In this document: positions 1-49,326 of the stretch, one piece after another
How the letters are laid out: the number at the start of each line of letters is the position of its first letter
How positions within the stretch are numbered: position 1 is the stretch's first letter
Assembly: GCA_003024175.1 (NCBI GenBank)
Contig: MDYQ01000204.1
Location: 1-50,107, forward strand
Origin: Planoprotostelium fungivorum
Lineage: Eukaryota > Evosea > Variosea > Cavosteliida > Cavosteliaceae
Length of the DNA: 50,107 nucleotides
Direction: 5' to 3'
Notes under the pieces: generated by a model
Seen by the model: the letters and a program-made list of their open reading frames with translations, nothing else
The model's database searches: none
Told to the model about the DNA's origin: nothing
Position numbers and translations under genes: made by a program

Positions 1-1601
1 TGCGGACGCTGGCTTCAGCTGTAAGTTGAGAGATTTCCTGCGGTAGGTCAACTCCATCGCTGAAAACGGTGACGTCATCACCTGTGAAAGTTTCTCCTTC
101 TCCTTCTTGTGGTCATCGGCCTCGGTGGAACGCTTCGAAGACTCTTCTTCGTACTTCTCTTGCAGTTCAGACACTTCCTGCATCGCATCAGCCGGTGAGA
201 GGAGAGGAGATGATGCGTTCACCTTCTGAAGCTTCTCGATCTGCCTCTTGTGGTTGACAATCTCCTCCGCATGATTCTTAGAGGCAGTTTCGGAGTCCTT
301 CTGGAGACCGGAGATCACCTGCGTCTGTGTCATTCGAGTCATCTGTGGAGGCATTACCTTCAGAAGACCCTCTCTCTCCTTGCATTCGGCCTCGGCCTGG
401 GAACTGTGGGCACTGGCTTCAGTTTGAAGTTGAGAGATTTCCTGCGGTAGGTCAACTCCATCGGTGACGATGGAGACGCACCTGTTGGAGTTTCTCCTTC
501 TCTTTCCTGTGGTCATCGGCCTCGGTGGAACGCTTCGAAGACTCTTCTTCGTACTTCTCTTGCAGTTCGGAGAGCTCCTGCATCACATCAGCTGGTGAGA
601 TGAGAAGAGGTGATGCGTTCACCTTCTCTAACTTGTTTGCCTTTGTACTCTGTAAGTTGGACTCGGCCGAGGATCTAGAAGATTCTTTCTGAAGTGTAGA
701 GACTTCCTGTAGAGGGTCAGCACAGCAGATGAGGGGTTCGAACACCTTCTCAAGTTCTTCTGTCTGCAGGCCGAGAAGTTCGGCTGTCTTCTGAAGCCTC
801 TCAATCTCCCTCTCGTGATGGGCGATCTCCTCCGCATGTTTCTCAGAGGCAGTTTCGGAGTCCTTCTGAAGGCCGGAGACCACCTGCGTCTGTGTCATTC
901 GAGTCCTCTGTGGAGGCATTACCTTCAGAAGACCCTTTCTCTCTCTGCACTCGGTCTCGGCCTCGAGAGAACGCTTCTTCAGAGCAGACTGGAGTCCGGA
1001 CTTCTCCTGAGACGGGTCAGATGGAAGAATGAAGATGCAATGTTACCGTCTGAAGTCTCTCAGTGAGACTGGTCAGGGCGGCGGCCCGGGCTTCGTGTTC
1101 AGAGACGACTTGTTCTTTTTCCTGGCGAATAAGAGCGACCTCCTGTGGTGCGTAAGTCGTTTCGTACCATGATACGATTGTCTCACAGCTCGAAGTTCGT
1201 AGCTTTCGAACAGATGGCTTTTCAAATCGTTCTCACTTCTCTCCTTGACTTCGAGAAGCTCCTGAGATGGATGAGTCGAATGCATTACGATCTGACGAGG
1301 GGCATCACCTTGTGAAGCCTGCAACCGACACGTTTCTCTCTTTTAATTCGTTCGTGAGCCTTGCGAAGTTCCTAAAGCAGATTAGTCACAATCATCGATT
1401 GTTTCGATTAGAGCTGATCATTACCTCAGAACACTTCTTAAATGCCTTCTCCCGACGAGTAGAAGCCTTAGAAACCTTTCTTCTTGGAGTCGCGGTCTGA
1501 TCAGGCTCTTTCACCTCCTCTCTCAGCACCACAACAAATCGCCAACAGAACAGAAGGCAGTTGATGAACAGTAAGACCGTGTAAACGTTTAGTTCGAGCA
1601 T
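1..1601 (-). CDS. Membrane-anchored modular coiled-coil protein, left copy (3' end outside window)
   Basis: I do not recognise a named family. The start is set at the ATG at 1601 (MLELNVYTVLL), which opens a hydrophobic segment of about 20 residues followed by basic residues. This looks like a signal anchor. Everything after it is predicted coiled coil rich in E, K, L and Q. The gene is a chain of short exons of about 20-46 codons, separated by introns of 38-53 nt. Exons start and end in phase 0, typically beginning GAA/GAG/GTG and ending CAG/AAG. Modules recur almost unchanged: one beginning VVSGLQKDSETAS or VISGLQKDSETAS and one beginning ELSELQEKYEEESS or EVSELQEKYEEESS appear at least twice each. 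Because introns are multiples of three or lack stops, translation often reads through them, so predicted long reading frames here are partly intron. A role in tethering or scaffolding at a membrane is only inference. Confidence 0.7.
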
Positions 1602-2019
1602 TTTAGCCTTGGTGTTCGTCCTTCGTGCGTCCAAAGAGATTTGGTGAAAATTGTTGAAAATGTTTTAAATTGAATCCTCCCCCATCTGCAATACAGCTGC
1701 GACAAATGCATTGGATGCCAGTGGTCGACATTTGTGAGATGAGGCGTCCGAAATGGACTCCGATCAAGTCGTGTCTGCTCTGAGTGGAGACAGGCACACG
1801 ACGCAGCAGCGACGGTATGTATGAATCGTTAGACGTCTCATCTGAAGAGCGGGGACAGGTGCGAGGCTTCTCGTCTGCACGATATATGGATCGTCTGATA
1901 GATTCAATTTCGGCTGGACATCGATCGGCGCAGGAGGCCAATCATAATCATCTACAGATGGTTTCCGTTTGTGAGAGGTAGATATCGATAGAATGGAATA
2001 TCTAAATGGATATATAGGT
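1602..2019. other. Conserved spacer inside the left arm
   Basis: This lies between the start of the coiled-coil gene and the end of the small upstream gene. It is well conserved in the right arm (47573-47991), including a minus-strand open frame (ending near 1764) containing SVDDYDWPPAPIDVQPK. That frame could be an alternative 3' exon of the upstream gene. It is interrupted by a stop after PKLNL in the right copy, which argues against strong coding constraint. It probably also contains the promoter of the coiled-coil gene. Confidence 0.4.
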
Positions 2020-2805
2020 TCACTGCTTTCTGAGCTTGTAGGTATGATAGGATGGCGATTGCATTTCGTGCTTTCCATCGACTTCTTCTCCTAGAGGTGT
2101 TCTGTGTGTCAAAGACTTGACTAATAGATAGGATACCCCTCGTATCTTTCTTCGGAGATCGATATCATCCATCATCTGTCCTAGTGAGAGGTTCATGTTC
2201 ATCACTTCGTAAGGTACGTCTTCGATCGACAGAACCCACTTGATCTCTTCACTTGCATCTCTTTCTATCCTCACAGCATGCAGAGACCAACTTTGTCTGC
2301 CACTGACAGGCAGCCGATGATCGCTTGCCTTCATTCTGACCTCGCCGACAGATAAGGCTCTTCTCGCTCAACCTCTTCGGAATTTCTCGTGAGTAACTGT
2401 TGTCGAGTCTCCTGACGAGAGTCTAATGATCGGCAGCCAAAAAAGGTCGAACATGGTCCAAGTGTAGAGATACTTCTGAATACATGTGAGATCAGTTTGA
2501 GAGAAGAGTAACATACCCGCCCTCCAGTTTTAGAACATGACCGCCTCGACCGTTGAATGGAATGCGGCATGGGCTGTATAAACGCCGGAATCAGTCTGGA
2601 ACCTCAGTCATCCGAACTGATGTCGAAGATGTGAGGAGGAGAGAAGTTTTGACCTGCCGTGTGGTTCGTGTGATGTGATATCAAAGTCGAGGTTTTCACA
2701 AATGTAGACTCTGATAGAATTTGACAGCCAGTCGTCCAACTTGAAACTCGAATAGAACCAGTGCGCTGAATTCTGCGAACTCCTTTCGTCAAAGTTCACC
2801 ATCAT
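2020..2805 (-). pseudogene. Small unknown gene, left copy (possibly decayed at its 5' end)
   Basis: The 3' exon is open from about 2300 down to a TGA at 2020 (ending KLRKQ) and contains the segment IKWVLSIEDVPYEVMNMN. A 38-nt GT-AG intron precedes it (about 2305-2342) and another, near 2475-2520, matches one in the right copy. Comparing the arms shows that the left copy has TGA where the right copy has a Trp codon (around 2609), and a shifted frame further 5' near 2650-2670. So either the true start is downstream, near 2570, or this copy is broken. No known domain is recognised. Confidence 0.4.
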
Positions 2806-2880
2806 CTACAACGCGAGATAATGTCGTATGATAAGCAATATCATAATATTTCTTGTCCACCGTTCGCGACACGTCATCAA

Positions 2881-2961
2881 GCAAGTTTAGTGAAGTGGTC
2901 AAACACGCTAGCTTCAGGTGCTAGTCCTTCGGGTTCGTGGGTTCGACTCCCACAGCTTGCA
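2881..2961 (+). tRNA. tRNA-Leu (anticodon CAG)
   Basis: A full cloverleaf can be folded by hand. The acceptor stem GCAAGTT pairs with AGCTTGC with one G-T wobble. The D stem is GTG/CAC. The anticodon stem CTAGC/GCTAG encloses the loop TTCAGGT, giving anticodon CAG. A long variable arm with a TTCG loop marks a type II tRNA, as expected for leucine, and the T arm GTGGG-TTCGACT-CCCAC is canonical. The discriminator is A2961. There is no intron. A T-rich stretch (ttctttt) follows immediately and can act as the RNA polymerase III terminator. Confidence 0.96.
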
Positions 2962-3119
2962 ACTTCTTTTGCACTCTCACACCCTCTTCCTCTTCTTCAA
3001 CCCTCACTTCCCATCACACCTCATCCGTCCACGATCAGCTCTACTTCAACAAAGAATCTTTTTACCTTTTGCACATTCAATGGATGCGATCGAATCCGGA
3101 GCCTGGCACTCTTTCATTC

Positions 3120-3300
3120 TCACCCATCATCTTCATCGTCTTCGTTCGTCATCTTTATTCGTCATCTTTCGTTCATCATCTTTCGTTCGTCATCTTTCGT
3201 TCGTCTTCTTTCGTTCATCATGATGTTTCGTTCATCATCTTTCGTTCGTCATCTTTCATCATCTCATCATCTCATCATCACATCATCATCATCACGACGT
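3120..3300 (+). repeat. Imperfect tandem repeat of TTCGTTC(G/A)TCATC units
   Basis: Repeated 12-13 nt units built from CATCTTTCGTTCGT and CATCATC run across this stretch between the tRNA and the 3' end of the next gene. The reading frames through it are low-complexity Ser/His/Phe/Ile strings and are not credible proteins. Confidence 0.8.
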
Positions 3301-3311
3301 ACAGAGTTGTT

Positions 3312-4452
3312 TTATTGTATGTTCTTTCCAGGTAAGAAGGCTTGTTCTTCTACCATGACAGGTCCTCTCAAGAACATCCCATACGAACTGTCCAAGTGTC
3401 CGACTGGCCCCAACTCTCTCACAGGCAGCTCGCTCTTATAGACAACAGTCGCATCGACCACCTTCTCGTAGATGGGCAGCGTCTGATGGATGAGTGTCGG
3501 TTGGATGACGTCTCTCTCTAAGACGGGTTGGATCTCTTCTATGACTGTCCTCTTTACCGTCTGTGTGTCTCATGTCGGTCGATGTGGAAGATGGAGATGA
3601 TGATATGGAGATGGATGATGCGAATCACCTCGTTGATGATGGGCTCGTTGATGCTCAGACTCTTCTGGGTCTCTTCGACTTCGACTGATGGTAAGATGAT
3701 CTGTTCTGGAATGGGAGCGCTGGATGGACATTCAACATGACGAATCGTGCACATCTCGTGATGACGTGTACCTGTTCTCTACAATGGCGGGTCGAACTTG
3801 GGCGGGTAGCTCTCTGGACTGTATGACTGTGGGTTTGATCTCGGTCTCATGCAGCTGTTGTGTGATCTGCTTGACTTCTAATTGTTCTCTTTCTCTGAAG
3901 ATGACTGGTTGGACCTCGCATACAAATGAGCCGATGGTGGGTGACGATCTGATATAGACACCTCTTGTTTCTCGACGGGATGGATGTGTTCGTGAACGAC
4001 GAGAGGCTTCTCGACTCGTTCCAAAGACACGGGCTCGACAGATAATGTGTCCGATTCGGCTGTTGATGTGACGACTTCACGTGCGATGGGAGAGGTGACA
4101 TCGACTGTCTCTACGATGGTCTCTGTCACGACAGGCGATTGCCTTGAGATCGATTGGGTCGCTTCTATGCCAGAGAGGCCTTCATGGTGTTCTATTGTTT
4201 GGATGGGCTTAATGTTCTGTTCGGCTGATATTCCATCGAATGGCTGTCGATGTCATTTAGAGGACGAAATGGTTGCAGTGTCACCTCTGCAAATGATGCA
4301 CCGTTGCTATATACTGGAGCTGCTGTCGGTGGGACTACGTTTTGCGAAGACAGAGGTGCTGAGTACGCTGCCTCGCGGCTGTGTCTCTTCGATCCACTCT
4401 TTCCATGATCATCTCTGTGGAGGACACTCTTGATCTTGTCACGAATGGGCAT
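3312..4452 (-). CDS. Hydrophilic allergen-like repeat protein, copy 1
   Basis: The start is the ATG at 4452 (MPIRDKIKSVLHRDD); the likely stop is TAA at 3314-3312. It is spliced, with one clear intron near 3586-3558. Recognisable segments are a basic N-terminus, then VEKPLVVHEHIHPVEKQEV, then EEIQPVLERDVIQPTLIHQ and TLPIYEKVVDATVVYKSEL. The pattern of 'EKPxVVxEHIHxVEKxEV' followed by short 'QPxxxRxxxQTE' type repeats resembles hydrophilic fungal and amoebal proteins labelled 'allergen' in databases. Their biochemical role is unclear and a stress/desiccation role is inference. No signal peptide or membrane segment is seen. A paralogue lies at 14204-15327 on the other strand with the same order of segments. 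Exact exon edges in the middle were not all resolved. Confidence 0.72.
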
Positions 4453-5125
4453 GATAAATAGATATAGAGAGGATGTGTTGTTTCGCTGTGTCTGTTGAAG
4501 TGATAACGGATAATGGATGAATGGATGGAACTGCGGTAGATCTGAATGAAATTTGAGAGGACACATGTGTCCAATGTCTTAAGATCTATATAGATCAATT
4601 CTTTGAAGATTGATAGAGGTTCTCCGTGTATACGAAACACAGATGATCCATCTGTGATCATGATCAAAATTGCGTCTGGTGTTACTCGTGGAAAGAGAAG
4701 AAAGCTGGAACGCTTGATCTTCAGCTCGAGTTGTTGAAAGATAGATGGGAAAGGAAATCAGAGACACGGATTGTACAGAGACTATTTATTACATGTTCTC
4801 TCTTCCAAAGAGGGACCTATATCGATAAGTAATGTTTCGATAGTTGAAAGATCGGTATCTATATCAAGATTGTGTTCAGACTCATTAAATCAGTTTTGTA
4901 TACTGTCATGTTTCCAGATATGCGTAAGTTACATCACATACACAAGAGAAGAAGAATAGATGAACGTGGAAGCCACCTCTCACCTTCTCGTTTCGAAGCG
5001 ATCTGATCTGTTTCCCTCGTTCATCTTGCACTCGCAGATTCCAGTCTCCTCTCTACAACGCAACAATAAAATAGAATAAAATCCACATTTCTCTCCTTTA
5101 TGTATATCTAAAAGCGCTCCACGAC
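4453..5125. other. Intergenic region
   Basis: This is 5' flank of the minus-strand gene ending at 4452 and 3' flank of the Vti1-like gene. It is AT-richer than its surroundings. Short open frames occur on both strands, but none shows a convincing domain. The sequence CTACAACG, common across this window, occurs at 5053-5060. Confidence 0.5.
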
Positions 5126-7701: not shown

Positions 7702-8208
7702 TCTCGATGATCCTCTCACCTTTTTGTCGATAAGTTATTTCTGTGAATAAATCAAGAGCAGCCATCTGTTAACTAATGTCATTCTTTTCATCGTGATGAG
7801 TGAAGGCGTGAACATTCGAACACCATTAGTGGATGGTAACCCCACCTCTCACTCAATACCTCTTCACATTCTAAAGACGCTTCATTTCATCCTCTACATG
7901 TTGCTGAGACGGGAGAGATGCACTCTGTCTTTTCTCCTTGGTGCCCAACCCTCGGGAAATAAAAGATAGAAATTCATTATCCTTCATTTGCGGAGTCAGG
8001 ATGCCCTTTCAGCGCTCTTTAGAGCTTGGCAGTTTCTCTCACGGAGAAGAGGAGCTATCATCTCAATCGATTATGTCATTGACGGAGTCTTGGACAGTAA
8101 AAGGAAAACGAAACTTTTATTCTCTTCTGCATTCGTGACGAAGGATGCACGTGTATAAGTGAACCGAAGACAAATACGAAGGGCAGACTATGAGACGGTG
8201 AGATGTAT
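7702..8208. other. Convergent intergenic region containing a dispersed repeat
   Basis: This is 3' flank of two convergent genes. It contains an AATAAA-like signal (tgaataaatc, about 7744) and the dispersed repeat at 7931-8095, described separately. No gene is seen. Confidence 0.55.
7931..8095 (+). repeat. Dispersed 165-bp repeat, copy 1
   Basis: Nearly identical to 23694-23857. The only visible differences are 3-4 positions just after 'gtgccca', including one extra base here. The flanks of the two copies are unrelated, so the edges are sharp: it starts TTTCTCCTTGGTG and ends GAGTCTTGGAC. It contains an internal GCTCTTTAGAGC hairpin next to TTCAGCGCT. No terminal inverted repeats or obvious target-site duplication are seen. 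Small reading frames cross it, but the two copies have unrelated flanking frames, so it is unlikely to code. Confidence 0.92.
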
Positions 8209-14203: not shown

Positions 14204-15327
14204 ATGCAACGCTTAAAAGCCCACTTCAAGACATCGCCATCTGGCAACAAAGAACATCGCCACCTCTTTCAAAGACGCCATGCCTCGCACGAGACAGCCC
14301 CTTCCATGCCGGAGGGCTATCAACCTGCAGTGTATGGACCCAAGCCTACTTTGCCATTCTATCCTGATCCAATCCAACCCCAATTACAGCCCGAAGTCCA
14401 TGTAGCACCTGCCATACCTTCACGAATCGTCTCAGAGGAGTCGAAGACAGTGTCAACTCGAGGACCCTCTTCAGAGGTGTGTCATAGAGGTCAATCGTGA
14501 TGGAATGTGACCCATATGCAGCTGTTGCCCGCGACTCACGTCACATGTGAAAGAGAAGTGCAGCTGGTTGAGAAACCAACTGTCGTTAGGGAACACATTC
14601 ACAATGTCGAGAAAGAAGAGGTGAAGCTCTACCTCACGCGACATCAATTCATACTTTCAGATCCAACCCATCATCCACAGAGAAGTTGAACAGACCGAAG
14701 TCCATCAGGTAATCTTTCATTTCCTCTCATCTTCTCCATCTGAAATGCATCAGATCACTCAAAAGCTCCACGAGACAGAAGTCAAGCCAACCATCGTCCA
14801 ACATCTCGAGTTAGCCCCCCAGATCAGAGCCCCTCTTATCATCGAATCGGAGCCTGTACCATCCGATGTCATCTTGGCCTCAACGACTACCAGCCAAAAA
14901 TTAAAGACAACCGAGGTGCTGCATCATCCATCACCATCACGTGACTGATGGAGACACAGACGTTAGAACCCATCGTGAAGGAGAGAATCAGAAAGATCAT
15001 CGTGGAGGAGGTGCAACCGGTCGTAGATCGAGACATGGTCCATGTAACCATCGTCAAGCAGACTCTACCTCTTTACATCAGCGACGCTTATCTGGACAGA
15101 GAGCTAACCCCCGCCAGACCACTGGTGAGTGTGTCGTGCATGTCATCACCTGCAGCATGATCTGATGATGTCTATAGAGAGACTTTTCGACTGGTATGCA
15201 ATTCAGCGGTGGAATACTGAGAGACTACCGCAAGCAGCAGACAGTGGACAACAGATTCAACAACGTGAAGGAAGTGAAGGAGATGCAGACCAGAGTACAC
15301 AGACAACTCCCCATGACCTCCGCTTGA
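14204..15327 (+). CDS. Hydrophilic allergen-like repeat protein, copy 2
   Basis: Exons 14204-14476, 14522-14620, 14661-14708, 14754-14915, 14960-15124 and 15178-15327 join in phase 0 through GT-AG introns of 40-53 nt. The start MQRLKAHFKTSPSG was preferred because the copy-1 protein also starts just before its basic segment. The core reads VEKPTVVREHIHNVEKEEV, then IQPIIHREVEQTEVHQ, then ITQKLHETEVKPTIVQHLEL, then EEVQPVVDRDMVHVTIVKQ and TLPLYISDAYLDREL. These match copy 1 (3312-4452) segment by segment, including IVEEVQPVVDRD against IEEIQPVLERD. The core also resembles the repeat signature of fungal proteins annotated as allergens; actual function is unknown. It is probably soluble: no signal peptide or membrane helix is seen. 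Confidence 0.8.
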
Positions 15328-19794: not shown

Positions 19795-22700
19795 TCAGAC
19801 GGAGAGCTTGATGTTGATGGCGCCGTTGCTGTCCTCTCTGTTTGCGAATCGTATCTTCTGTCCAGGTAAGACGTTCGGACTCTGCAAGGTGAAGGCAGCT
19901 GTCGAGTTGTTTGATCCTCTCAGACGCAGCTGGTAAGTCATCGTCTTCTGCGATGAAGTGTCTAAAGTGGCCTTGGTCTTTGATGCACCGGAAGTCAAGA
20001 GAAGGTACATGGGATAGTAGAAGGGAGCTGTTCCCTTGTTGGTCACGTCTACACGGACGGTGAAGATGGAGCTGATGGAAGATGAGTGATGATGGTGGAT
20101 GACGGATCGATCACCTGCTCGTGCGTGTGACGGTGAACTTGGAGAGGTAGATCTGGTAACCCAGCAGCTGCTCTGCCGCCTTCGCTCGGATGAGATTGTC
20201 ACCGGAATATTCTGATGATGTTATCATGGAGGTGATGCCGTCGCGTCTCACTCTGCTGGAACGCATAGTTGTTCCACAACCAAGAGGCGTGGATCTTGCT
20301 TACGGTGTCGCCAAATGGAGTTCGAGTGCAGGGTTTGCTGTCAAAAGCACAAGACTGGTAGGGAGGGTACAGTTCACCACCGATGGGCTGTGAAACACGT
20401 GAGAAACATCATCGTTACGTCCCAAATCGAACGAAATAAAAGAAATAAAATCGAATCAAATGACGAGATTTCACCTGGGTGGTCCAGATGTCGTTCGCGT
20501 TGACCGAAGATAATTGATTGGCAAAGTACCAATCTTGATCACCGTACGTATCCTCTCCAAAGCTGTCGTCATAGTAACCTGCGTTGAGATCTTTCGGGTT
20601 GTGGCTTCCGATCTTGTTGGGGTAGCGAGTCTGTACGTCTTCAATTCCACAATCAAAGTGGACACTCACCATCAGTCGGGTGACCTTGAAGCTGGAAGTG
20701 AAAGCGTTGAGTATGGTGTCTTGAACCGAGGTGGAAGCAAAGTCGGTGGTCTGGGAAGATGAGTGGAGGACGTACGTACGGTACTTACCGGGTAATTGTG
20801 CCATTCACCCCAGTGTCCCAGGAGACCCATCTGTCATGATATCACGGTGAGACGTCTCTCTTCACTCACCTGCCAGAATGCGATGCGGCTGTCTCCATCA
20901 TACTTACGTCCTGTCAAACGTCAGATGTCACGTGTCATCCAAGTCTTAAAGTCTCGAATCTCACCCAATTCAGTGATCAATTGTACGAGCGCCCTAGTCA
21001 GATTTACACTGTTGTAGTCGGGGTGGACTCCACTACCGTCGCCGTTGTCGATCATTCTCGTTCCCTGCAACAAGAAAGGAGGGAGGATTTGCTGTGAAAT
21101 GTCGGTGAAATTTCGCCGTCTACAACGCTCACGTTTGCCGATTTCGTGACGTCGGGATAATCGACGTAGACGCGAACGATGCTCTGATGATCTGTCCTTG
21201 ATGAGAAATTTTCTTCGTTTCACGTGAATTCACTCCTCTTGGCAACGTTAGAGAAGACCTGATCGAGTGTGGAGAAGTCAAACTGGTTCCAACCTGTCAT
21301 CAGCTTGCGGAAGGGTACGTAAGTGTTCTCCATGGAGCAGGGGAAGTCGTTGCAGGGATTGTTTGAATCACCTCCGAAGGGAACGAAGCCTGTGGTGGGT
21401 CACATATGAGGGTGATTACATAGCTCTTATTCTATAAATAGCTCAAGGTGAAATTGGATATCGTGATCTATATATATGTCGTGGTCTATATCTTATGACA
21501 TGACCTCACCTCTCTGTGGATTGCCCGCAGTGTTAGAAGCATCGTACTTCAGGAAAGTGTCGTTCAGACCAGTAGGATTGGGGGCAGGCTGAGAGGTAGG
21601 AGCAGGCTGGGTCGTATCTTGTCTCGTTGTAGATCGAGTGGTACCGACGGTCGGCATGGTGACCGTGAGTGCTCCGTTGGTATTGGCCTCTGAAGTCGCG
21701 AGCTTGACTTGATTCTGCGATAAGACGTAGCGACTGACGAGCGAGAAGACGAGAGCTTGTCCAGAGACGGATTTGATGCCTGTTATGGTGAGACATCGTC
21801 TACAACGTTGTAGATGGTCACCGCTGACGGTCAATCGGTAGGTGTTCGTCTGGCCCGGAGTGGTATCGAGGCTCTGGCTGGTTGTAGATCCACCGGTGGC
21901 AACTTGTAGAGAGATGGGGTAGTAGAACGGAGCGTTACCGTTGTTCACGGTAGTTACCGTGGCAACCACGTCACACCTACCCCGATCAATTCGAATCCTC
22001 GAGTTTTCTCTCACGTGTTACCATTGCACGTCTGTTCAACTTGAACCGAAGACAAATGGATCTGATAGCCCAAAGAGGCAGCGGCATTCAACGCGTTCGT
22101 CTTCTGAGTTCCAGAGTATCCGGTAGAGAAGGCATAGTTGTTCCACATCCAAGAGGGACGGGTGAGGCTGACACACGTGTTCCAATCCATCGTGGCGCAG
22201 TTACCAGAGAAGGCACAATTCTGAAGGGGAGGATACAGCTCTCCACCGATGATCTACAACGGTTCAGCGAAGAATAAAATAGAATAAAATGTGGATTCAA
22301 ATGGTGAATGGAATACCTGTGTCTTCCAGATGTCTTGACCTCCTACTGAAGAGAGTTGATTGTAATAGTACCAATCTTGGTCACCGTAGGTGTCCTCTAA
22401 AAAGCTGTCGTCATAGTAACCTGCGTTCAATTGTCCGGGTGCGTAGCCACCGATCTTGTTGGGGTATCTGACCTGTCTACCCGTCAGACTACAACCAGCC
22501 ACTCCCGCCTCACCTGCAGCTTCGTCTGGGTGAAAGAGTGGGTGAATGCGTCGAGTATGAGCTTCTGGTTGGCGGTGCTGGCGAAATCGGTGGTGGGCCA
22601 TGTGTGCCATTCTCCCCAGTGACCCAATAGACCGACCTGCCACACAGCGATGCGGTTGTCTCCGTTGTATTTAGAACCTGAGATGATCTTAGAATGAGAT

Positions 22701-23378
22701 GATGGTGAGACGATATGTGGATGATGTAGAGGTGCGACGGAGGAATGAGAGAGGTGTTCGGTCGGATGTGACGTACCGAGGGCATTGATCAATTGAACGA
22801 GAGCTTTGATCAGATTGGCATCATCGTAGTTGGGATGGACTCCTGTTCCATCTCCGTTGTCGATGACTTGAACGGTGTTGGCCAAGAAGGGAGGAAGGAT
22901 TTGCTGGAAGACTTTAGATCGGATGATGTAATATGTGTGTCTCACGTTGATGCTTCCACTGTTGTCTTCTGGGTAGTCCACATAGATACGGATGATCGTC
23001 TGATGTCCTACATTCCGTCAGTTTCGACCGAGCGTAAACAAAGGGTTATGATATGATTTACCTCTGGATGCAACATTGGCAAACGTCCGCTCGATGATCG
23101 AAAAATCAAAGGTGTTCCAATTGGACATGACGGAGATGAAGGGGATGTATTTGTTCTCGAGAGAACATGGAAAGAGAGTGCAGGGATCGTTGCCATCCCC
23201 ACCGAAAGGGACGAAACCTGCACACATTAATCTTCACACGCGAAGAAGAGAACGGATCATCCACACCTCTTAAAGGATTCCTCTGGGTGTTTGAAGTACT
23301 GTAGGTGTATCGAGAGCTGAAGAGAACATCAGCGCTGACCAACAGAGGTAACAGCAGAAGGGACCAGCTGCCCTTCAT
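19795..23378 (-). CDS. Secreted protein with two DUF4874/DUF4832-like modules
   Basis: The start at 23378 begins a signal peptide (MKGSWSLLLLPLLVSADV). Module 1 (about 23340-21700) has NPLRGFVPFGGDGNDPC, SVMSNWNTFDFSIIERTF, QTIIRIYVDYP, FLANTVQVIDNGDGTGVHPN, IAVWQVGLLGHWGEWHTWP and QLNAGYYDDSFLEDTYGDQ, then a beta-rich part. This is the pattern of bacterial and amoebal DUF4874 + DUF4832 proteins, thought to be TIM-barrel and beta-sandwich carbohydrate-active-like proteins of unknown activity. A Thr/Gln/Pro linker (RSTTRQDTTQPAPTSQPAP) leads through an in-phase splice (NPQRG|FVPFGGD, about 21508/21390) into module 2, which repeats the same blocks (FVPFGGDSNNPCNDFPC; AGYYDDSFGEDTYGDQDWY) and ends IKLSV. 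So one gene with an internal duplication is favoured over two genes. About 14 introns; one (about 21785-21826) is a 42-nt intron holding a palindrome. Confidence 0.8.
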
Positions 23379-24076
23379 GGTGTTGGAGGAGGAAAATGAA
23401 CTGACGCGAGGAGAAATGTATATGACATGATGGAAACAGTCCGACGAATCGTCAGTGTCAAGTCAGCTTGCCTTGCATCGTCGCGGTGGGGTACCGTCCA
23501 TCCACCTCTACGTGGCTCGCACTCTGATTGTTCGCTTGCTCGAACCGCCCCACGACTGCCACGGGCCTATTTCAATGGATTCCATAAATCAAGGAGAGCG
23601 ACGATGAGATCACCGTCTATCATGTGCCCTCTCTTCTGTGATGGTGCCTCATCATTTAGAACGTCAACAGCAGAGAAGTAATGGGAGTGTAGATTTCTCC
23701 TTGGTGCCCAAGTTCGGGAAATAAAAGATAGAAATTCATTATCCTTCATTTGCGGAGTCAGGATGCCCTTTCAGCGCTCTTTAGAGCTTGGCAGTTTCTC
23801 TCACGGAGAAGAGGAGCTATCATCTCAATCGATTATGTCATTGACGGAGTCTTGGACGCTAAAACTCCTCGAGTCGAGCGCAGGTCTTGACGTCGTATAG
23901 GTTTTGTTTGAGATTTTTATGTTTTGAGGATGTTTCTCGTCTGTCTATCGACCAGTCTCTTCGTACATTCTAGAAACAGGGCAACTGACAGGACAGAGAG
24001 CAGAGGCCACGGAGCTGTGACTCTTGAATCGATATTTTGTTCAGGTAGGGATGACACATCATAGGACAGCAACAAC
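23379..24076. other. Intergenic region with dispersed repeat copy 2
   Basis: This is 5' flank of the secreted protein gene. It contains the dispersed repeat (23694-23857). Otherwise no recognisable gene. Confidence 0.5.
23694..23857 (+). repeat. Dispersed 164-bp repeat, copy 2
   Basis: Nearly identical to 7931-8095 and in the same orientation. Both copies lie in intergenic DNA. Sequence similarity stops abruptly on both sides. Confidence 0.92.
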
Positions 24077-27474: not shown

Positions 27475-27902
27475 TTGGACACAATACATCTCTCCTTAAA
27501 CTTGTCTGTAGTTTATTCGTGTCCTTTTAGAAGATCCGCGGGTCATCCACATGATGCTTCTCGTCGTGAGAGATCATCGGCCGTGATGTGATCCTTTTAG
27601 ACGACCGAAGGAGGATGAATTTTGGGCTGTTTCATCTGCACATTTGATCATCCGTGGATAATGAAATTGAATTCATAAATTATCAAAAGCGCTGAAAACG
27701 TGCTGGGAGAGTAAATCAACTCCGGTGGATGAATCTATCACTTCACTTCATTTATACTAAAGAAATTAAAACGCTTAACTTGTGATGATGAAGGACATTC
27801 ATATGTATCGCTGCACATCGATAGACGGGACACCGCCTTTATAACAAACCCTCTTCTCATCATCTTCTTACAAACATGAGAGCACCTGATTCTTTACATT
27901 TA
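27475..27902. other. Convergent intergenic region with a diverged dispersed-repeat relative
   Basis: This is 3' flank of lysyl-tRNA synthetase and of the H15 protein. It contains the element at about 27655-27750. No gene is seen. Confidence 0.5.
27655..27750 (-). repeat. Diverged relative of the dispersed repeat, copy 3
   Basis: Shares AAAAGCGCTGAA, an ACTCCG block and ATGAATCTATC with the reverse complement of 46517-46610, in the same order and near-equal spacing. The upstream TTCATAAATTATC/TTCATAAATCATC segment is shared as well. The last part also aligns with the reverse complement of the 165-bp repeat (AGCGCTGAA ... ACTCCG ... ATGAATTTCTATC). Confidence 0.6.
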
Positions 27903-30499: not shown

Positions 30500-31597
30500 A
30501 TGAACGATAGATTATCAGAAGTGCAGACGGTGAGATGATTTTACATACCGTGGAAGGAACCTCCCGGGTGGTGATTTGTGGCTGACCTTGATAGAACCAA
30601 CTCGGAGCCGGTCAACAGAGCCCCGCCCTCTCGTTGCATTCCACAGATAGCGCACATTCACCATCTTCCCTGAAACACAAGAAGAAGTTTAAGAAGGAGA
30701 AGAAGGTCAAGATATCGAAGAAGGCCAAGCACAGCCAATTAGAGACTGAAATCCTCGGCGTCACAGAGGATGGAGAATTTATGGCCGACTTCTTTACCAA
30801 AGTGGGGGAGATGAAGAAGAACATCTTGATCATAGAGGAGACGACACACAAGTTGAACTCGGTCACCACTCAGAAGGGTCTGGACAACATGTCAACGCTA
30901 TTGAGCGAGACCAACTGCTACATTGCTCAGATTCGAGACGACCTCTTGACCATGGGCAAGGAGAACACCATCTTGGGAGATAACCCAAAGATTGCCCAGT
31001 CATCAGAGTACATGATCCGAGTCAACGCCTTCAACTCTCTCAAGTCCAAGTTCTTTGAGACGGCCCGACATTACGAGGAATCGCAACTCAACGCCAGAAA
31101 CAAAGAGAAGGAGTCCATCGAGAGACGAATCAAGATTGGTATGTCGTACTCTTCAACATTCCAAAGACTTACATGAGACAGTCAATCCCAGCGCCACCCA
31201 AGAAGAAGTGGACGAGATGATCGAGTTGGGAGAGAACGTCTTCGAACAGAAGACATTAGACAAGAAGCGCCATGCAGAGGCGAAGGAAGCTCTTGAGAAA
31301 GTCGAAGACCAACGAATTCAACTCCATCAACTCGAGCAGTCCATCATGGAGTTGCATCAACTCTTTTTAGACATGGCACTCTTGGTCGATGAACAGGGAG
31401 AGATGATCAACGTCATCGAGGCCAACGTGAACAAGACCGTCCAATACGTTGCAGAAGCCAACCAAGAGCTGAAGATTGCCCTCAAGTACTCGAACAGCGC
31501 GAGAAAGAAGGTTGCCTTCTTAGTCGCGGGAGTCGTGGCTGGTGTCGCGGCGGGAGCTGGAGCCATAGCAGCTAAATTCGCTCTCATTGGAGTATAA
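30500..31597 (+). CDS. Qa-SNARE (syntaxin), copy A
   Basis: Exons are 30500-30529, 30619 to about 31139, and about 31184-31597. Exon 1 (MNDRLSEVQT) was chosen because the paralogue at 42897 starts alike (MQNRLAEVK) with an intron right after; the 30618/30619 acceptor keeps phase 0. Residues about 40-160 form the syntaxin N-terminal helices (EFMADFFTKVGEMKKNILII). The SNARE helix includes QRIQLHQLEQSIMELHQLF and ALLVDEQGEMINVIEANV, with Gln in the zero layer (DEQGEMI). The end is a hydrophobic tail anchor (KVAFLVAGVVAGVAAGAGAI). This is the arrangement of plasma-membrane syntaxins acting in exocytosis. The anchor is Ala/Gly rich rather than the Ile/Leu/Val-rich one of copy B. Confidence 0.9.
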
Positions 31598-34589: not shown

Positions 34590-37436
34590 TCAGAAGATCC
34601 ACCAGTTCTGCATTCTGTTCAAGCTGACGCTAGAGAGGACGCTGCCGAGCTCCCAGCCAGTTCCCCAATCGTAAGAGCCAGTCTGCTGACTCCAGTTGTT
34701 GGCAGGCACGATAGCTCCGGTGAGGTACTTGTCCCTGGCATCACAGATCTGCTGCTTGACGAGAGTGCGATCGAAGACGAGGAACTCATCGAGGGTACCA
34801 CGAAGAGGATCAGCAGACAGCTTGCCTCCCACAGTGAGGCCGACGACGCTCTGGACGAGGGCAGAGATGGACTTGACGCCGCAAGAGACGCCGTTCAAGA
34901 AGAGCTCGGCACGACCGGCACTGACGGCGACGGCAACGTGGGCCCAGGCACCCACTTGTAGAGAGCTGGCGTCCCAGCTGACATAGCTGCCCTGAGATGG
35001 CTGGAAGGTGATCTGCTTGGCGCTGCCGTCGTAGGCTAGCTCCCAGCCGCTGAGAAGAGCCTTGGTCGATGCGATGATGTTCTTCCCTCCGATAGCGTCG
35101 AGACGCAACCAAGTGGCGATGGTGAAGGCGTTGTTGAGATTGAACTGAGGCAGAGTGATGTAGAGGCGGTTGCCACTCTTCCAGTTGCAGCCCCGTCTCA
35201 GCTTACCGACGACGAGAGAGATGTCGGTGGAGAAGGCGCCGTGACGGCCGTGTCCAGAATCATCGGTACATCTTCCCTGGTTGATCTTGTCGAATGACCA
35301 GTACAGCCAAGGTAAGCCACAGCTCATGCCTGCAGCCGTGGACGCAGGTACGCCAGTGAAAGAGGGATTGGAAGACTGGGCTGCACTTGTTGAGGGTGTG
35401 GAAGTGGGAGTGTAGATCTGAGAAGTCCCCGCATCGGTTGCCGGTGGAGATGTGACGGCGTCAGTGGGGGTGTAGGGCTGGGTGTTCATTCCTGCGTCGG
35501 AAGATGGGGTAGGAGTGTAAGGCTGAGTGTTCATTCCTGTGTCTGTTGCGGAGATGTAGGGAGCGTCAGATGGGACGAGAGTGAAAGATTGGGCAGGAGT
35601 GGAAGATTGAGAGGATGTTGCAGGTGCAGATGTGGAGGTAGAGCATCTGTTGCTGATGATCGAGAGGATCTGCTGGGCAGAGAGAGATTGGGTGAACATC
35701 AGGAAGTCGTCGAGAGCTCCCTTGAAGTTGCTGATGCTCTGATCAGCGGCGATGTAGAGAGGGCTGATGACTTTGGACAAGGCGATGTTCTGAGTGGCTC
35801 CAGCAATTCCGTTGATGTACAGAATGACCTTACCGCTCTTCTCAGCGGTGAAAGCCAAGTGGAACCATGTATCGGTGGGGATGTTGATGTTCCAAGAGAC
35901 GCTAGAGAAGCCAGAGGTGAACGTGCATGTCTTCGCGACGGGGTTGATAGAGAGTTCCCAGCCAGAGAGGAGGGAGAATAGACCTTTCTTCGCGGACACG
36001 ATCTTCATTACTTTGTTGCTGGCTTGGACCTGTCCACTCTCAGCGATGTCTACGAGATGACGGAAGAATGAGACTCACCTTCAGCCAAGTGGCAATCGAG
36101 AATGCACCGTCGAGACCGGCAGTCTGGTCGAGTCTGAGACCTTGGAATCCAGCAGAAGAACCGAAGCCGAGCGCCTGCTTCGTCTTTCCCAAGATGACGC
36201 TGGGTAAGCCGAGCACAGTCGCGATCTTGCCGTTTCCACTGTCGTCCTTCAATAGATTACCCAAGATACCGTTGTCAAAGGAGTAGTAGCAGTAGGGGAC
36301 GGGAATGGATGGTCCTCCAGGAACGCAGGGAGGAGATACGATGGGGATGGAGCTGGTGGCGGGAGTGTAAGTCGTCGGTGGGGGGAAGTTGGAGGTGGCT
36401 GCCGAAGTGGAAGGGGCCTTGTTACCGCCGCCGAACAGTCCACCGAGGATGTTGGTGATGGGCAGAATGGAAGTGACTACGTTGGTGACGGGCAAGACTG
36501 CACTGACTACGTTGGTGACGGGCAGTACCGAGCCGATGACGTTGGACAGAGCGCTGGGCACGGTGGGGCCAGTGAGAGTGGCGTACAAGTAATTGGCAGA
36601 GCAGGTCAGACCGTTGACTTTGTTGACGTACAAGTTGGAACCGCCAGAGGGAGAAGAGCAGGCGTACCACAAGAGACTGCCGTTGTGGCTGAGATAGTCA
36701 CCAGAGATACCGAAGATCGTCTTGATGGCACCGTTGGCAGTGTTGGCAACAGTATTGACCACACCGTTGACGGCACCGTTGACAGCGTTCGTGATAGGGG
36801 CTCCATACATGAGCTGGCCACCAGTAGAGATATAGCACTGCTGACCCTTGTGATCGAAGAGAGATCCTGCAGACAGAGTGAAGTTGACGGCGGCAGTGAT
36901 GCTCTTTGCAGCGTTGATGCGAAGCTGACCGCCAAGCAGAGAGCGGACGTTGTAGAGACCAAAGGGACTCTTGCATGTCGTGTCAGCGACAGCAGCAGTG
37001 GGCTGAGGGCAGGTGCTGATGTCTTGAGGCTGGCCAGAGACGCAGCAGAACTTGCTGCTGTCGTAACATGCGTCGCCACAAGCCATCATGTTGTTGGTCA
37101 CACAAGAAGGAGGAGAAGAGCAGCTGCGGTCGGTTCTGGCAGTGTACTGAACGCTCATCAGTCCATCTAGTCTTCATCATCTGCTCGAGATGAACTCACC
37201 GAACCGTCAGTTCCACACTGGTACGCGCAAGAAGCGATGCAGACGTCGTTGCATGAGGCTGTTCCAGTGGCACAGAGACGGTATTGTCCGTGATACTGGT
37301 CAGCGTTGCAGCTGTACTGAGAGGGATCGTAGCAAGTGTTGACGCCGGAGCACCAGACATAGCCGGGCTGGCATATGTTGGCCCACACAGCGGTGGCCGA
37401 GAGAGCGAGAAACAGCAAAGTGATTGCGTGTCTCAT
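34590..37436 (-). CDS. Secreted double LamG-like (concanavalin-fold) protein
   Basis: The start at 37436 gives a signal peptide (MRHAITLLFLALSATAVWA). A Cys-rich N-terminus follows (CQPGYVWCSGVNTCYDPSQY; about 20 Cys across two exons), then a mid region with NGAVNGVVNTVANTANGA and near-tandem copies of SVLPVTNVV. Two LamG/laminin-G-3-like domains follow. The first has YCYYSFDNGILGNLLKDDSG, FSIATWLK and GALDDFLMFTQSLSAQQI; the second has LYWSFDKINQGRCTDDSGHG, FTIATWLRLD, AHVAVAVSAGRAELFLNG and GTLDEFLVFDRTL. A Ser/Thr/Pro linker with repeated GMNTQPYTPT units, probably O-glycosylated, separates them. Introns lie near 37198-37152 and 36080-36030. It ends NWWIF. Likely an extracellular or wall carbohydrate-binding protein. 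Codons are strongly C/G-ending, suggesting high expression. Confidence 0.85.
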
Positions 37437-42896: not shown

Positions 42897-44118
42897 ATGC
42901 AGAACAGGTTAGCAGAAGTCAAGGTAATGTTGTCTCTTGGAGATATGATTTGCGAAAGTGGGATTGAGAGGTGCACAGGATGCAGAGGCAGATCCTGAAG
43001 ACGTCAACGTCGAGTTTGGAGGAGGCAATAAAAAGAAGAGGAGTGATAGCACAGAGACGGGAGAGGAACTAGAGCTGGTCGGTATGGAGGGTTTCATGCA
43101 GGAGTTCTTCGAAGAAGTGAGAGGATACCTTTTACGCCTCTGACAGTCGCTCAACATGGTAGGTCTCATCCATCAAGGCCGGTATGTCCACCATACGAAA
43201 GAACATCAAGGCCATCGAAGAGAGCTCTTCGCAGAGTCTCATGTCCGTTGGCATCGAATCCAGTGAGTCGTGGAAACAGTTTACATTCGGATCCTGAAGA
43301 CAAACAGAGGGAAGTGGAGAATTGGAGAAACTGATCGAATCGACAAACATCACGGCCAGTGATGTCCGAAACAAACTCAAAGACATGGATGCAGATAACA
43401 AGAAAACGAGCACGAAAGAGAAGGCCACGGCACAGTTTCGGATACGTACAAACGTACACGGTACCCTCACTAAGAAGTTCTTGGAGCTCATGCAAGAATA
43501 CCAAGAGGTGCCATCATTATCATCTCGAATGACAAAACGAGATGAATCACCGACGTTCGAACAGGTTCAAAACAAGTACAAAAACAAATACAGAGAGAGA
43601 GTCGAGAGACAATACAAGATCGGTGATCTCCCATTCCAATCATCCCTCATCTCACCTTCCATCAGTCAAGCCCGAGGCCACACAAGAAGAAATCGACGCT
43701 GCCATGGAGTCTGGCAACACAGAAGTCTTCGCAGAGAAGATTTTAGACAAGCAGCGTCACTCTCAAGCGAAAGACGCCCTGGCTTACATCGAGAACAAGC
43801 ACAGAGAGATTCTCGCTTTAGAACAGAGTATCATGGAGCTCCACCAACTATTTATGGACATGGCTATATTGGTGGAGGCGCAGGGCGAGCTCATCGACCA
43901 GATCGAATACAATGTCCAACAGAGTGTGGGCTACACAGCAGAGGGAGTCAAGCAGCTCAAATCGGCCAACAAGCTCGCAAAGAAATCGAGAAAGGTGAAA
44001 AGAGGAGAGAGGAAAGACTGACGCGATGTAGAGGATGTGCTGTCTCATCATCTTGTTGATCATCGTTCTGGCCATCGTCGCGGCAGTTGTTGGTGGAATC
44101 TTTGGCTCGAGGAAGTAG
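42897..44118 (+). CDS. Qa-SNARE (syntaxin), copy B
   Basis: The start at 42897 (MQNRLAEVK) is followed by an intron of about 35 nt. The N-terminal helices include GMEGFMQEFFEEVEDIRKNI across an intron near 43119-43183. The SNARE helix has KHREILALEQSIMELHQLFM and AILVEAQGELIDQIEYNVQQ, with Gln in the zero layer. The final exon supplies the anchor (CCLIILLIIVLAIVAAVVGG) and a short GIFGSRK tail after a 37-nt intron (about 43994-44030). It is a paralogue of 30500-31597: the SEQ...SIMELHQLF core and early intron position agree. Plasma-membrane-type syntaxin for exocytosis is the best call. The order of exons 3-4 near 43260-43310 is less sure. Confidence 0.88.
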
Positions 44119-44280: not shown

Positions 44281-46050
44281 TCATCCAAATTGGAAGGCTC
44301 TCTCTACGAACGACTGCTCATCGTAGAGTTGGGCGACGACTTTTCTTCCACCAAAGGTTCGGCCGTTTAGATCGTCGATGGCTGTATGTCTTTAAACTTC
44401 GTCCCTCGCACGAGACGATTCACCTCTCTTGGCTTGGTCGTGATGTGCGAATTTGACAAAGATACGCACGGCCTCGTGGTTGGCAACGCCGCTCCTCGTG
44501 TCCTATGGAATTGACTCTCAGATGAACATCATGATGAACATGGAGAACATGATGATGATGAACATGACACGATGAACATCATGATGAGCTCAGGATGATG
44601 AGGCGATGATGATGAGATGAAAGATGATGAGTTGTTGGCGATCACCTCGTGTACGATGCATTGCATGACGGGACCATACTTTGACGTGCACTCTTCTTTC
44701 GTCTCTCTCTCCAGCTCGTTATCCACCTCACCCGGCCCCACCATGTTCTATATCCTCTTCATCTTCCCATTCAAATGAAACCTCCACTCACCGTAAGCAC
44801 CACCACGCTGCTCAGATGTAGAGGGACACTATTATTCTGAACCTTCTGACTGATCTTCTTCATCGCATCACCGACCACGATGACACCGGTTCGGCCGTCC
44901 GTCTTCTTAACGATGAGAGGAGCAGTGATACCGTCTTCGGTCTTGCCGAGACCTTGTCCTTCTTTGTAACCCATCTTGGCCATCATCTTGGCGACGATGC
45001 TGTTGTTGGTGACCCCAACTCCGGGGCCAGTCTGATTGTTTTCCTTCTTTGATTTCTTGCTGGGAAAATTCTTCAGATTCTGTTCTGTGATGGATGTGAC
45101 ATGGTGATGTGAGATCGTGATTTGAAATGAGATGATGGATGGAGGAGATGATGGAGGAGACTTTCGTCACCTCTTCTTCGCTGGAGGTTGAGAGATTGAC
45201 GGTGCTTCGTGCTGGATCTTCGATGGCGATGGCTTCTTCTCTTCCTTCTCTTCGTGAAGCGGCGGTGGGACATCTTCGTTCTTGTAGATGGAGGGAGGTC
45301 TAAAGTCTGGATTGACTGGTGCTTGCATCTTCGTCTCTCGATCTTCTAAAAGCGAACCAGATCAATATCCAAGAGGTCAAAAAGATGACAACGGAATTCA
45401 CTCTTGATAAGGTTCCTCCTCCTCTCTTCGATAAGCTTGATGTAATCATTCGGTTTCGTTGGATCGTACACTTCGATGGCAGAACCAAAGATGGATTGTG
45501 AGGCTTGTGCGTTTCTAGAGAGGGTGAGAAGGGTTTAAAACGTCCATCGGTCACTCTAATGGGTCGTGTGTGATGGTGAGTGGTATGGGTGTCACTTTCT
45601 CCTCGACTTTGATTGTGTGGCTCAAAGATGCCTCTTCTTCTGTGAATTTAGACTCTCGCTGTTTGAGATCATTCTGAGCCTGCTTCAACTTTTGTAATTG
45701 TGAATTGGCCAGTGAGGATATCTTCTTGACTGGTGCTGGCTTGGCCGCCTTAGCTGCGGCAGCCTTTCTTATCGCGATCAATCTTGCAGTATTCGAGCCC
45801 CAATCTTCGACATCGAATCAGCAATCGAGACGTGGGCCATCACACCTGTGGTGGTCTCTTTGATGGGTGCTTTGGTGGGGGCGGCACTGGTGATGACGAT
45901 CTCATTTGGAGTAGACTCAGGAGCATTCGACGTCGTGGCAGAAGATGAGGGGACATCTGGTGTTGGTAGACTCGATAGAGGTGCTGAGAGTGATCCAGTT
46001 GACGTGGATGGAGGTGGAAGATCCTCGTATAGACTCCAGGTGCCGCTCAT
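44281..46050 (-). CDS. RBM17: Splicing factor SPF45 / RBM17
   Basis: Spliceosome-associated factor that helps 3' splice-site choice. The start at 46050 (MSGTWSLYEDLPPPS). The N-terminal low-complexity part includes KAAAAKAAKPAPVKKISSLA and DYIKLIEERRR. The G-patch spans NSIVAKMMAKMGYKEGQGLG KTEDG, about 45000-44930. The C-terminal RRM is a U2AF-homology motif (UHM): NMVGPGEVDNELERETKEEC, EAVRIFVKFAHHDQAKRAID, and GRTFGGRKVVAQLYDE, where the RxF motif of UHMs is RTF. This order (G-patch then UHM) is diagnostic for SPF45. About six introns. The stop is TGA at 44283-44281. A splicing factor of this class is of interest in a genome with introns this short. Confidence 0.92.
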
Positions 46051-46874
46051 CGCGTAATGGTGTGATGATCAATCACTTTAAAAAGAATCGGGCCAAAAAA
46101 TGAGTGGAAAAGTAGCCGAGTTCACCAAAGTCAATCATCTTTGAGCCTTCTGAGATTCTCTTGTGGAATGAAGAGATAGAGTTCTTCCACAAAGAGCTCA
46201 CGAGATGTATCGATGAAGACAGATAGAGATGAACACAAGAGTCTCAACGATCGTCGTATCATACACGGTCAGTGTGGGAGGCATTCAGAGACGATGCGAC
46301 TGTTCTCCTTCCTCGAATGATCTCATCTGATAAAAAAACTTGATTGAGGTCACACGTCGCAGGCAGCTGCCCAGAACATCGCCGTTTCACTCCGGGAGCG
46401 GCTATGATGAAGTTCGTCGCTTGTTGTCAGCGATACAGAATAGCTATGGCGTCATACGCTGTCTCGTGGAAGTAAGCAAAGTCTGACCTTTAGAAGATGA
46501 AAACGTAATGGAGGTGATAGAAATTCATTGATCGGAGATAATTCACTTTTAGAGCGTGTCTTCAGCGCTTTTGATGATTTATGAAAATTCTCTAAAAATG
46601 AATTGAATACCAATAGCGTAAATGCGATGCAAGATCACATCGTAGCAGCAGCACCATATTGATATCATCCGCATCGAGCTCTTCTCTCGTCAACGTCAGA
46701 CGGTGTTGTTCTTTTGACTCTCCCCTCCCCATCTATCACTTTCTTCTACTCCCTCTCTGGCCTCTCGCTTCACGACACATCTCATGTTCTCCTCTCATCT
46801 GCACACGCTGTCCGCGGTCGACATGGATCCACAACACGCGAGCATTCAGTGAATGTGTGAGTTGAGAGTTGTAG
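46051..46874. other. Intergenic region bordering the right arm
   Basis: This is 5' flank of the SPF45 gene. It contains a diverged dispersed-repeat relative (46517-46610). No gene is seen. Confidence 0.5.
46517..46610 (+). repeat. Diverged relative of the dispersed repeat, copy 4
   Basis: Begins GATAGAAATTCATT exactly as inside the 165-bp repeat, then a CGGAG block and TTCAGCGCT in the same order, and continues into TTTTGATGATTTATGAA, which matches the reverse complement of 27655-27750. Confidence 0.6.
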
Positions 46875-47572
46875 ATGAGAGCTATAAAAGGAGAGTTTAT
46901 CGACCATATCACATCACAAGGGCCGCATGTTGAAGTTTCTCCTCCTCACATCTTCGAGTTCAATTCGAATGACTGGGAGCTTAGACTGATTCCGGTGTTA
47001 TATATCCCATGCCGCATTCCACTCATCGGTCGACAGGGTCATGTTCTAAAACTGGAGGGCGAGTATGTTACTCTTCTCTCAAACTGATTCCACTTGCATT
47101 TAGACTTCTCTCGCCACTTGGACCATGTTCGACCTTTTTTGGCTACTGATCATTAGACTCTCGTCAGGAGATTCGACAACAGTTACTCACGAGAAATAAC
47201 GGAGAGGTTAAACGAGGGAGGAGTCTTGTCTGTCGGCAAAGGTCAGAATGAATGCAAGCGGTCATCGGGTGGGCAAGGCGGCCGCCTGTCAGTGGGAGAC
47301 AAAGATGTTCTCTGCTGTGAGGATAGAAGGAGATGCAAGTGAAGAGCTCAAGTGGGTTCTGTCGATCGAAGACGTTACACTACGAACTGATGTACATGAA
47401 CCTCTCACTAGCACAGATGATGGATGATATCGACCTCTGATGAAACATACGAGGGGTATCCTATCTATTAGTCAAGTCTTTGACGCACAGAACACCTCTA
47501 GGAGAAGAAGTTGATGGAAAGCACGAAATGCAATCGCCATGCTATCATACCTACAAGCTCAGAAAGCAGTGA
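46875..47572 (+). pseudogene. Small unknown gene, right copy (broken)
   Basis: Homologous to 2020-2805 in opposite orientation. The 5' part is open and better than the left copy (MRAIKGEFIDHITSQG; IPVLYIPCRIPLIGRQG). In the 3' exon, relative to the left copy, one extra base lies near 47373 and a TGA replaces a codon near 47438, so the final exon (ending KLRKQ in the left copy) cannot be read through. The two copies are damaged at different places. Confidence 0.55.
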
Positions 47573-49326
47573 ACCTATATATCCATTTAGATATTCCATT
47601 CTATCGATATCTACCTCTCACAAACGGAAACCATCTGTAGATGATTATGATTGGCCTCCTGCGCCGATCGATGTCCAGCCGAAATTGAATCTATGAGACG
47701 ATGCATCCATCGTACAGACGAGAAGCCTCGCACCTGTCCCCGCTCTTCAGATGAGACGTCTCATGATTCATACATACCGTCGCTGCTGCGTCGTGTCTCT
47801 GTCTCCACTCAGAGTAGACACGACTGGAACAGAGTCCATTTCGGACGCCTCATCTCATAAATGTCGACCACTGGCATCCAATGCATTTGTCGCGGCTGTA
47901 TTGCAGTTGGGGGAGGATTCAATTTAAAACATTTTTCAACAATTTTCACCAAATCTCTTTGGACACACGAAGGACGAACACCAAGGCTAAAATGCTCGAA
48001 CTAAACGTTTACACGGTCTTTCTATTCTTCAACTGCCTTCTATTCTGTTGGCGATTTGTTGTGGTGCTGAGAGAGGAGGTGAAAGAGCCTGATCAGACCG
48101 CGACTCCAAGAAGAAAGGTTTCTAAGGCTTCTACTCGTCGGGAGAAGGCATTTAAGAAGTGTTCTGAGGTAATGATCAGCTCTAATCGAAACAATCGATG
48201 ATTGTGACTAATCTGCTTTAGGAACTTCGCAAGGCTCAGGAACGAATTAAAAGAGAGAAACGAGTCGGTTGCAGGCTTCACAAGGTGATGCCCCTCGTCA
48301 GAGTCAGATCATAATGCATTCGACTCATCCATCTCAGGAGCTTCTCGAAGTCAAGGAGAGAAGTGAGACCGATTTGAAAAGCCATCTGGTCGAAAGCTAC
48401 GAACTTCGAGCTGTGAGACAATCGTATCATGGTACGAAACGACTTACGCACCACAGGAGGTCGCTCTTATTCGCCAGGAAAAAGAACAAGTCGTCTCTGA
48501 ACACGAAGCCCGGGCCGCCGCCCTGACCAGTCTCACTGAGAGACTTCAGACGGTAACATTGCATCTTCATTCTTCCATCTGACCTGTCTCAAGAACTCCG
48601 GACTCCAGTCTGCTCTGAAGAAGCGTTCTCTCGAGGCCGAGACCCAGTGCAGAGAGAGAGAGGGCCTTTTGAAGGTAATGGAAACACAGAGGACTCGAAT
48701 GACACAGACGCAGGTGGTCTCCGGCCTCCAGAAGGACTCCGAAACTGCCTCTGAGAAACATGCGGAGGAGATCGCCCATCACAAGAGGGAGATCGAAAGG
48801 CTTCAGAAGACGGCCGAACTTCTCGGCCTGCAGACAGAAGAACTCGAGAAGGTGTTCGAATCCTTCATCAACAGTGCTGACCCTCTGCAGGAAGTCTCTA
48901 CACTACAGAGAGAGTCTTCTAGATCCCTGGCCGAGGCCGAATGCAAGGAGAGAGAGGGTCTTCTGAAGGTAATGCCTCCACAGATGACTCGAATGACACA
49001 GACGCAGGTGATCTCCGGTCTCCAGAAGGACTCCGAAACTGCCTCTAAGAATCATGCGGAGGAGATTGTCAACCACAAGAGGCAGATCGAGAAGCTTCAG
49101 AAGGTGAACGCATCATCTCCTCTCCTCTCACCGGCTGATGCGATGCAGGAAGTGTCTGAACTGCAAGAGAAGTACGAAGAAGAGTCTTCGAAGCGTTCCA
49201 CCGAGGCCGATGACCACAAGAAGGAGAAGGAGAAACTTTCACAGGTGATGACGTCACCATCTTCAGCGATGGAGTTGACCTACCGCAGGAAATCTCTCAA
49301 CTTACAGCTGAAGCCAGCGTCCGCAG
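46890..49326. repeat. Right arm of large inverted duplication
   Basis: Matches the reverse complement of 1-2690, including introns and the spacer between the two genes. 49326 corresponds to position 1 of the window, so the homology may continue to the right beyond what can be compared. Confidence 0.88.

Follow-up and report, generated by a model that had tools for sequence, protein, structure and literature searches.

Inverted gene copies about 44 kb apart in Planoprotostelium fungivorum, probably homogenised in part by ectopic gene conversion

The window, that is, the whole stretch of 50,107 nt analysed here, contains one large inverted pair of segments, which was detected by repeat search as well as by self-BLAST. 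The left arm (positions 1-2642, minus strand, 2642 nt) leaves the window at base 1, and the right arm occupies positions 46938-49325 (plus strand, 2388 nt). The two arms lie about 44 kb apart in mirror orientation with their genes facing outward, and each of them consists of about 1 kb of upstream DNA and a single outward-reading gene. The sequence-only reading of this DNA had described arms that match in opposite orientation, introns included, and that leave the window on at least one side. Repeat search, self-BLAST and MAFFT alignment all pair 1-2642 with 46938-49325, the left arm is indeed cut at base 1, and the self-alignment that had been proposed as a check, carried out by self-BLAST, recovers the inverted arms. 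For the right gene model, the two left upstream open reading frames (ORFs) and the right-arm ORF at 48540-49352, Pfam matched nothing at its cut-off and revealed no mobile-element protein.

The gene in each arm is putatively coiled-coil-like. Its left copy (1-1601, minus strand) was modelled with 12 exons, the last one cut by the window, and 375 codons in the window; the right copy (47992-50107, plus strand) has 13 exons and 526 codons to the window end, its 3' end being open. The right gene thus runs on past 49325, without a left counterpart, up to the window end. Start codons (ATG at 1601 on the left and at 47992 on the right) and GT..AG splice sites were picked by eye. The predicted introns, 11 on the left and 12 on the right, are all 39-53 nt long and all in phase 0. 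As the earlier reading had stated, the gene is open in both arms, since both modelled frames are uninterrupted to the window edge. Indels within the modelled exons preserve the reading frame, and in the right copy a 2-nt loss at a splice acceptor is offset by an acceptor one base on, the exon measuring 81 nt versus 84 nt. Repeat search and self-BLAST further revealed internal tandem repeats in the exon array. A 63-bp minisatellite of 4.8 copies (49803-50107, plus strand) lies within the final exon modelled for the right gene; it extends to the window end and encodes about 4.8 copies of a 21-residue repeat in the right protein.

The protein begins with a hydrophobic segment, a probable membrane anchor, and continues with 340 residues which include 0 prolines and are rich in E, L, K and R. 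Over the whole stretch the strongest period was 3.50, with a power at 3.4-3.6 of 6.6 as compared with a shuffle maximum of 12.8 (n = 1000). A windowed test of heptad periodicity, used after this whole-stretch test had shown no excess over shuffles, gave a mean 3.5-residue power that was reached by 5 of 2000 shuffles. The protein of the right model matched no Pfam family at the cut-off, the best hit being REST_helical (E = 0.025; 15.3 bits versus 27). Relatives were confirmed neither among 12 pattern matches in a virus contig collection nor among 98 in a bacterial and archaeal one, a result that says little because both collections are limited to viruses and prokaryotes.

Divergence of the upstream DNA is uneven, with 4.7% differences in 1602-2216 and 11.6% in 2217-2642 (49 of 421 columns), the inner region where the left arm is most diverged. 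This inner part is more diverged than the introns of the coiled-coil-like gene (11.6% versus 3.6%). A possible 54-nt exon and 41-nt intron are common to both arms in the upstream stretch, open over 53 codons on the left and 49 on the right. A 115-codon frame is open at full length in the left arm only, and neither of the two left-arm upstream ORFs matched a Pfam family. A former small gene may possibly have lain here; the earlier claim of a small neighbouring gene with different breaks in the two arms could not be established.

The interval between the arms was surveyed by a Pfam scan of 40 proteins, 36 of them from the interior, in a window that has 388 stop-to-stop ORFs of at least 60 codons. 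Judging from these matches, which together with the introns mark the DNA as eukaryotic, the interior genes belong to ordinary cellular families: Ras, EDC4 C-terminal, guanylate/adenylate cyclase, class II tRNA synthetase, linker histone, syntaxin, SNARE, Laminin_G_3, protein kinase and G-patch were all at or above the cut-off. The closest solved structures are lysyl-tRNA synthetases for the class II tRNA synthetase match and Akt/SGK-type kinases for the protein kinase match. About half of the 36 interior proteins had no Pfam match at the cut-off. The sole tRNA gene found in the window, a tRNA-Leu (CAG) at 2881-2961 (plus strand), is situated in the interior, about 240 nt from the border of the left arm. 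The interval also contains paralogue pairs of greater divergence, one inverted and several direct. We asked whether they mark the region as unusually prone to duplication and rejected this idea, because their proteins are only 25-71% identical and the pairs were therefore taken as unrelated, older events.

Individual features of the interior can be summarised as follows. Inverted related protein pieces of about 40-71% identity lie at 3468-4015 (minus strand) and 14567-15076 (plus strand), and three ORFs in or beside these segments had no Pfam match at the cut-off. Tandem related genes occupy 19804-21393 and 21655-23221 (minus strand), one ORF of which matches DUF4874 just under the cut-off (28.1 versus 30.1 bits). 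Two syntaxin-like genes at 30811-31507 and 43193-43994 (plus strand), about 12 kb apart, are 47% identical over 145 aligned residues. At 16.3-18.8 kb (minus strand) a match to the guanylate/adenylate cyclase catalytic domain at about 18.1-18.5 kb stands beside hydrophobic ORFs, and this stretch possibly encodes a membrane-bound cyclase. The two ORFs at 34593-37173 (minus strand), pieces of which are related to each other, are cell-surface-like, with a Laminin_G_3 match and a weak PIR1-like_C match below the cut-off; a Toxin_R_bind_N match (28.2 versus 23.8 bits) covers the same stretch as Laminin_G_3 and is taken to reflect nothing more than a lectin-like fold common to both. Positions 7931-8102 and 23694-23864 carry the two copies of a direct repeat (about 170 nt, 97% identity) whose surroundings are otherwise unrelated; it has the appearance of a short interspersed element, and a 14-nt piece of it occurs again at 46516-46529 (E = 0.025). 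Because the latter overlaps one member (46511-46585) of a 75-nt inverted pair with 77% identity, the other being at 27672-27744, this pair may be a decayed interspersed element.

When the two arms were aligned with MAFFT in gene orientation, 116 mismatches were found in 2364 two-base columns, which corresponds to 95.1% identity, along with ten gaps. The difference in arm length is mostly due to the largest of these gaps, a 271-nt block present on the left only (398-668, minus strand). Both main self-BLAST pieces gave printed E-values of 0.0, hence a chance match of the arms is excluded. The inner flanks of the two arms are unrelated in sequence. At the inner end the identity of the arms falls to 88%, and at the border itself 18 of the first 100 columns differ, after which short patches only follow without a clean join. 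For the extension of homology past this border, 500 shuffles attained the observed value 1, 0 and 4 times at 60, 120 and 300 nt, respectively. As the homology fades at the inner border, the junction of the duplication is not seen. The locus thus shows opposite homologous segments above chance with unrelated inner flanks, as is the case for an inverted, dispersed gene duplication.

These properties bear directly on whether allelic or collapsed copies of one gene were joined mirror-wise at a contig end during assembly. Such an artefact would explain why the left arm is cut off at base 1, within sequence that is nearly the same in both copies and that short reads could not assign to one or the other; the right end of the window lies in the minisatellite, and assemblies are expected to break on repeats. 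Alleles, too, can have patchy divergence of the kind described below. Against these points stand the unrelated inner flanks, the homology that fades instead of ending in a clean join, and the 271-nt module that is present in one copy only, so that we consider a misjoin quite improbable. The arms were earlier held to be a real duplication and no exact mirror artefact, and this is borne out by the 95.1% identity, the ten gaps, the coding-like substitutions and the fading inner homology. The accompanying description of the duplication as not very recent suits the diverged parts of the arms and does not suit those parts that are identical over 153-330 nt, where the identity suggests a later homogenisation.

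The differences between the copies are indeed distributed in patches. Identical runs of 330, 196, 195 and 153 nt adjoin stretches with 8-12% differences, and these runs span introns and upstream DNA. The longest one, a candidate gene-conversion tract at 68-397 (minus strand), is identical to 48929-49258. Over all columns, neither the observed dispersion nor the 330-nt longest run was reached in any of 5000 shuffles. For left positions up to 2216, dispersion was reached by 0 and the longest run by 2 of 5000 shuffles; the corresponding numbers for the gene alone were 6 and 3. The analysis was also restricted to near-neutral sites, namely introns, upstream DNA and third codon positions (taken whole, not the synonymous ones only), in three sets: all sites, those up to 2216 and those of the gene only. 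For each set, 10000 shuffles were made. None of them, in any set, matched the four longest difference-free runs taken together, and 0, 4 and 8, respectively, reached the dispersion. The longest single difference-free run at these sites is not extreme, since 7, 91 and 54 shuffles attained it in the same order of sets. Near-neutral divergence is therefore clustered beyond the expectation of a uniform rate, as in paralogues under gene conversion.

A plain duplication without conversion, in which uneven mutation or constraint produced the patches, has to be weighed at this point. The identical sequence is partly coding, and in the gene-only set the longest difference-free run came up in 54 of the 10000 shuffles, both of which suit this explanation. 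It has difficulty with identical runs that cross introns and upstream DNA, with the four longest runs that together were never equalled in 10000 shuffles, and with a step in identity that falls on a deletion border. For these reasons we regard it as unlikely.

This step is located at the border of the 271-nt exon-module block, which has no counterpart on the right. Just proximal to the border 26 of 337 columns differ, and distal to it 2 of 397 (Fisher p = 1.4e-7, an optimistic value since the border was picked after the alignment had been seen). The short repeat GGCCGAG is found at both block ends and at the junction of the right copy (48928/48929). The loss of 271 nt still leaves the right copy with a 78-nt exon, in frame. 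Comparison of the tandem exon units A1 and A2 within the left copy shows 9 differences in 96 bases, whereas A2 of the left copy and its right equivalent differ at 0 of 96. A1 and A2 hence look older than the last homogenisation, and it was probably the right copy that lost the block. Further in, 10 of 594 columns differ in left 1006-1601; a single event is thus insufficient, and a minimum of one further homogenised stretch has to be assumed.

Selection on the two copies was evaluated from the modelled exons. Differences at codon positions 1, 2 and 3 amount to 2.2, 1.0 and 4.5%, and those in introns to 3.6%. Twenty-two of the 311 compared codons differ, 12 synonymously and 10 nonsynonymously, which gives dN 0.014, dS 0.060 and a dN/dS of about 0.23. 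Were both copies neutral, 10 or fewer nonsynonymous differences among 22 would be expected with p of about 0.001; were only one copy neutral, the 10:12 ratio would be borderline (p = 0.064). As both copies are open and dN/dS is about 0.23, at least one of them is under purifying selection. Both are probably constrained genes, and given the p = 0.064 under a single neutral copy, one of them could be decaying.

Taken together, a dispersed inverted gene duplication that diverged and was partly homogenised by ectopic (non-allelic) gene conversion appears to be the best explanation, to which we assign a probability of roughly 0.7. The coiled-coil-like gene, with its probable N-terminal anchor, and about 1 kb of upstream DNA would have given rise to a second, inverted copy at a distance of about 44 kb, and both copies would then have diverged. 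Ectopic gene conversion would subsequently have overwritten patches between them. One misaligned exchange, annealing at the short repeat in the exon array, may have removed the 271-nt module from the right copy and left everything distal to the deletion nearly identical. We infer conversion as the cause from the pattern of the arms, and likewise the mechanism of duplication, the direction of transfer and the single-event account of the deletion. As there are two copies and no outgroup, conversion is inseparable from an uneven mutation rate or hidden constraint, and mixing of short reads at long identical tracts during assembly could mimic homogenisation. It should be further pointed out that an exon array whose introns are all in phase 0 could allow a coiled-coil protein to become shorter or longer through loss or gain of exon modules, its frame remaining intact.

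Inverted arms of this kind could plausibly drive inversion of the 44-kb interior, an effect that would add to conversion and not replace it. A natural precedent, and the closest published case found, is the flip/flop region of Saccharomyces (PMC9731477), where 24 kb lie between 4.2-kb inverted repeats that are 97.6% identical in S288C, carry the Centroid genes and begin at a tRNA gene. There, the authors ascribe homogenisation to gene conversion, accompanied by occasional crossovers that invert the segment. The same paper followed about 53,800 mitoses and 950 meioses and saw the orientation change in none of them, hence flipping is rare even for homogenised arms. An active inversion switch, or a recurrent flip/flop region with the 44-kb interior in both orientations, would be in keeping with outward-facing inverted paralogues that share identical tracts of up to 330 nt and with the tRNA gene close to one arm border. 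Nevertheless, the 36 interior proteins scanned by Pfam, a part of the 388 ORFs, included no mating-type or recombinase family, and identity is only 88% at the inner arm end, which makes such a switch very doubtful here.

Like the flip/flop region, the present locus has paralogous arms in inverted orientation, each a few kb long and alike in their intergenic DNA as well; in both cases homogenisation is ascribed to conversion, tens of kb of other genes separate the arms, and a tRNA gene stands at an arm border or close to it. It differs in that its identity is more uneven (88-100%), its gene is split by many small introns, its tRNA gene accompanies one arm only and lies outside it, and the outer end of the left arm lies beyond the window. 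Two orientations are the defining feature of the Saccharomyces region; the resemblance here is one of layout, with one orientation read. It is a long shot that this is a recurrently homogenised inverted repeat of another eukaryotic lineage, flipping its interior, in which a modular coiled-coil gene would replace the Centroid genes. If confirmed, the locus would be a second case for studying why certain inverted-repeat gene pairs stay alike and whether homogenisation flips chromosome segments as a by-product. The same paper mentions inversion-type mating-type switching in Ogataea polymorpha and similar yeasts (PMC9731477). As in the system outlined there, recombination between inverted repeats could turn round the intervening segment; unlike in that system, the 36 interior proteins scanned by Pfam include no mating-type family.

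The mosaic of the two arms is of the same kind as in dispersed gene duplicates under ectopic gene conversion and differs from it in nothing basic, the inverted orientation at 44 kb being a detail. Such duplicates form a mosaic of near-identical and diverged tracts which spans introns. On present evidence, the pair is an ordinary gene duplication with a mosaic history.
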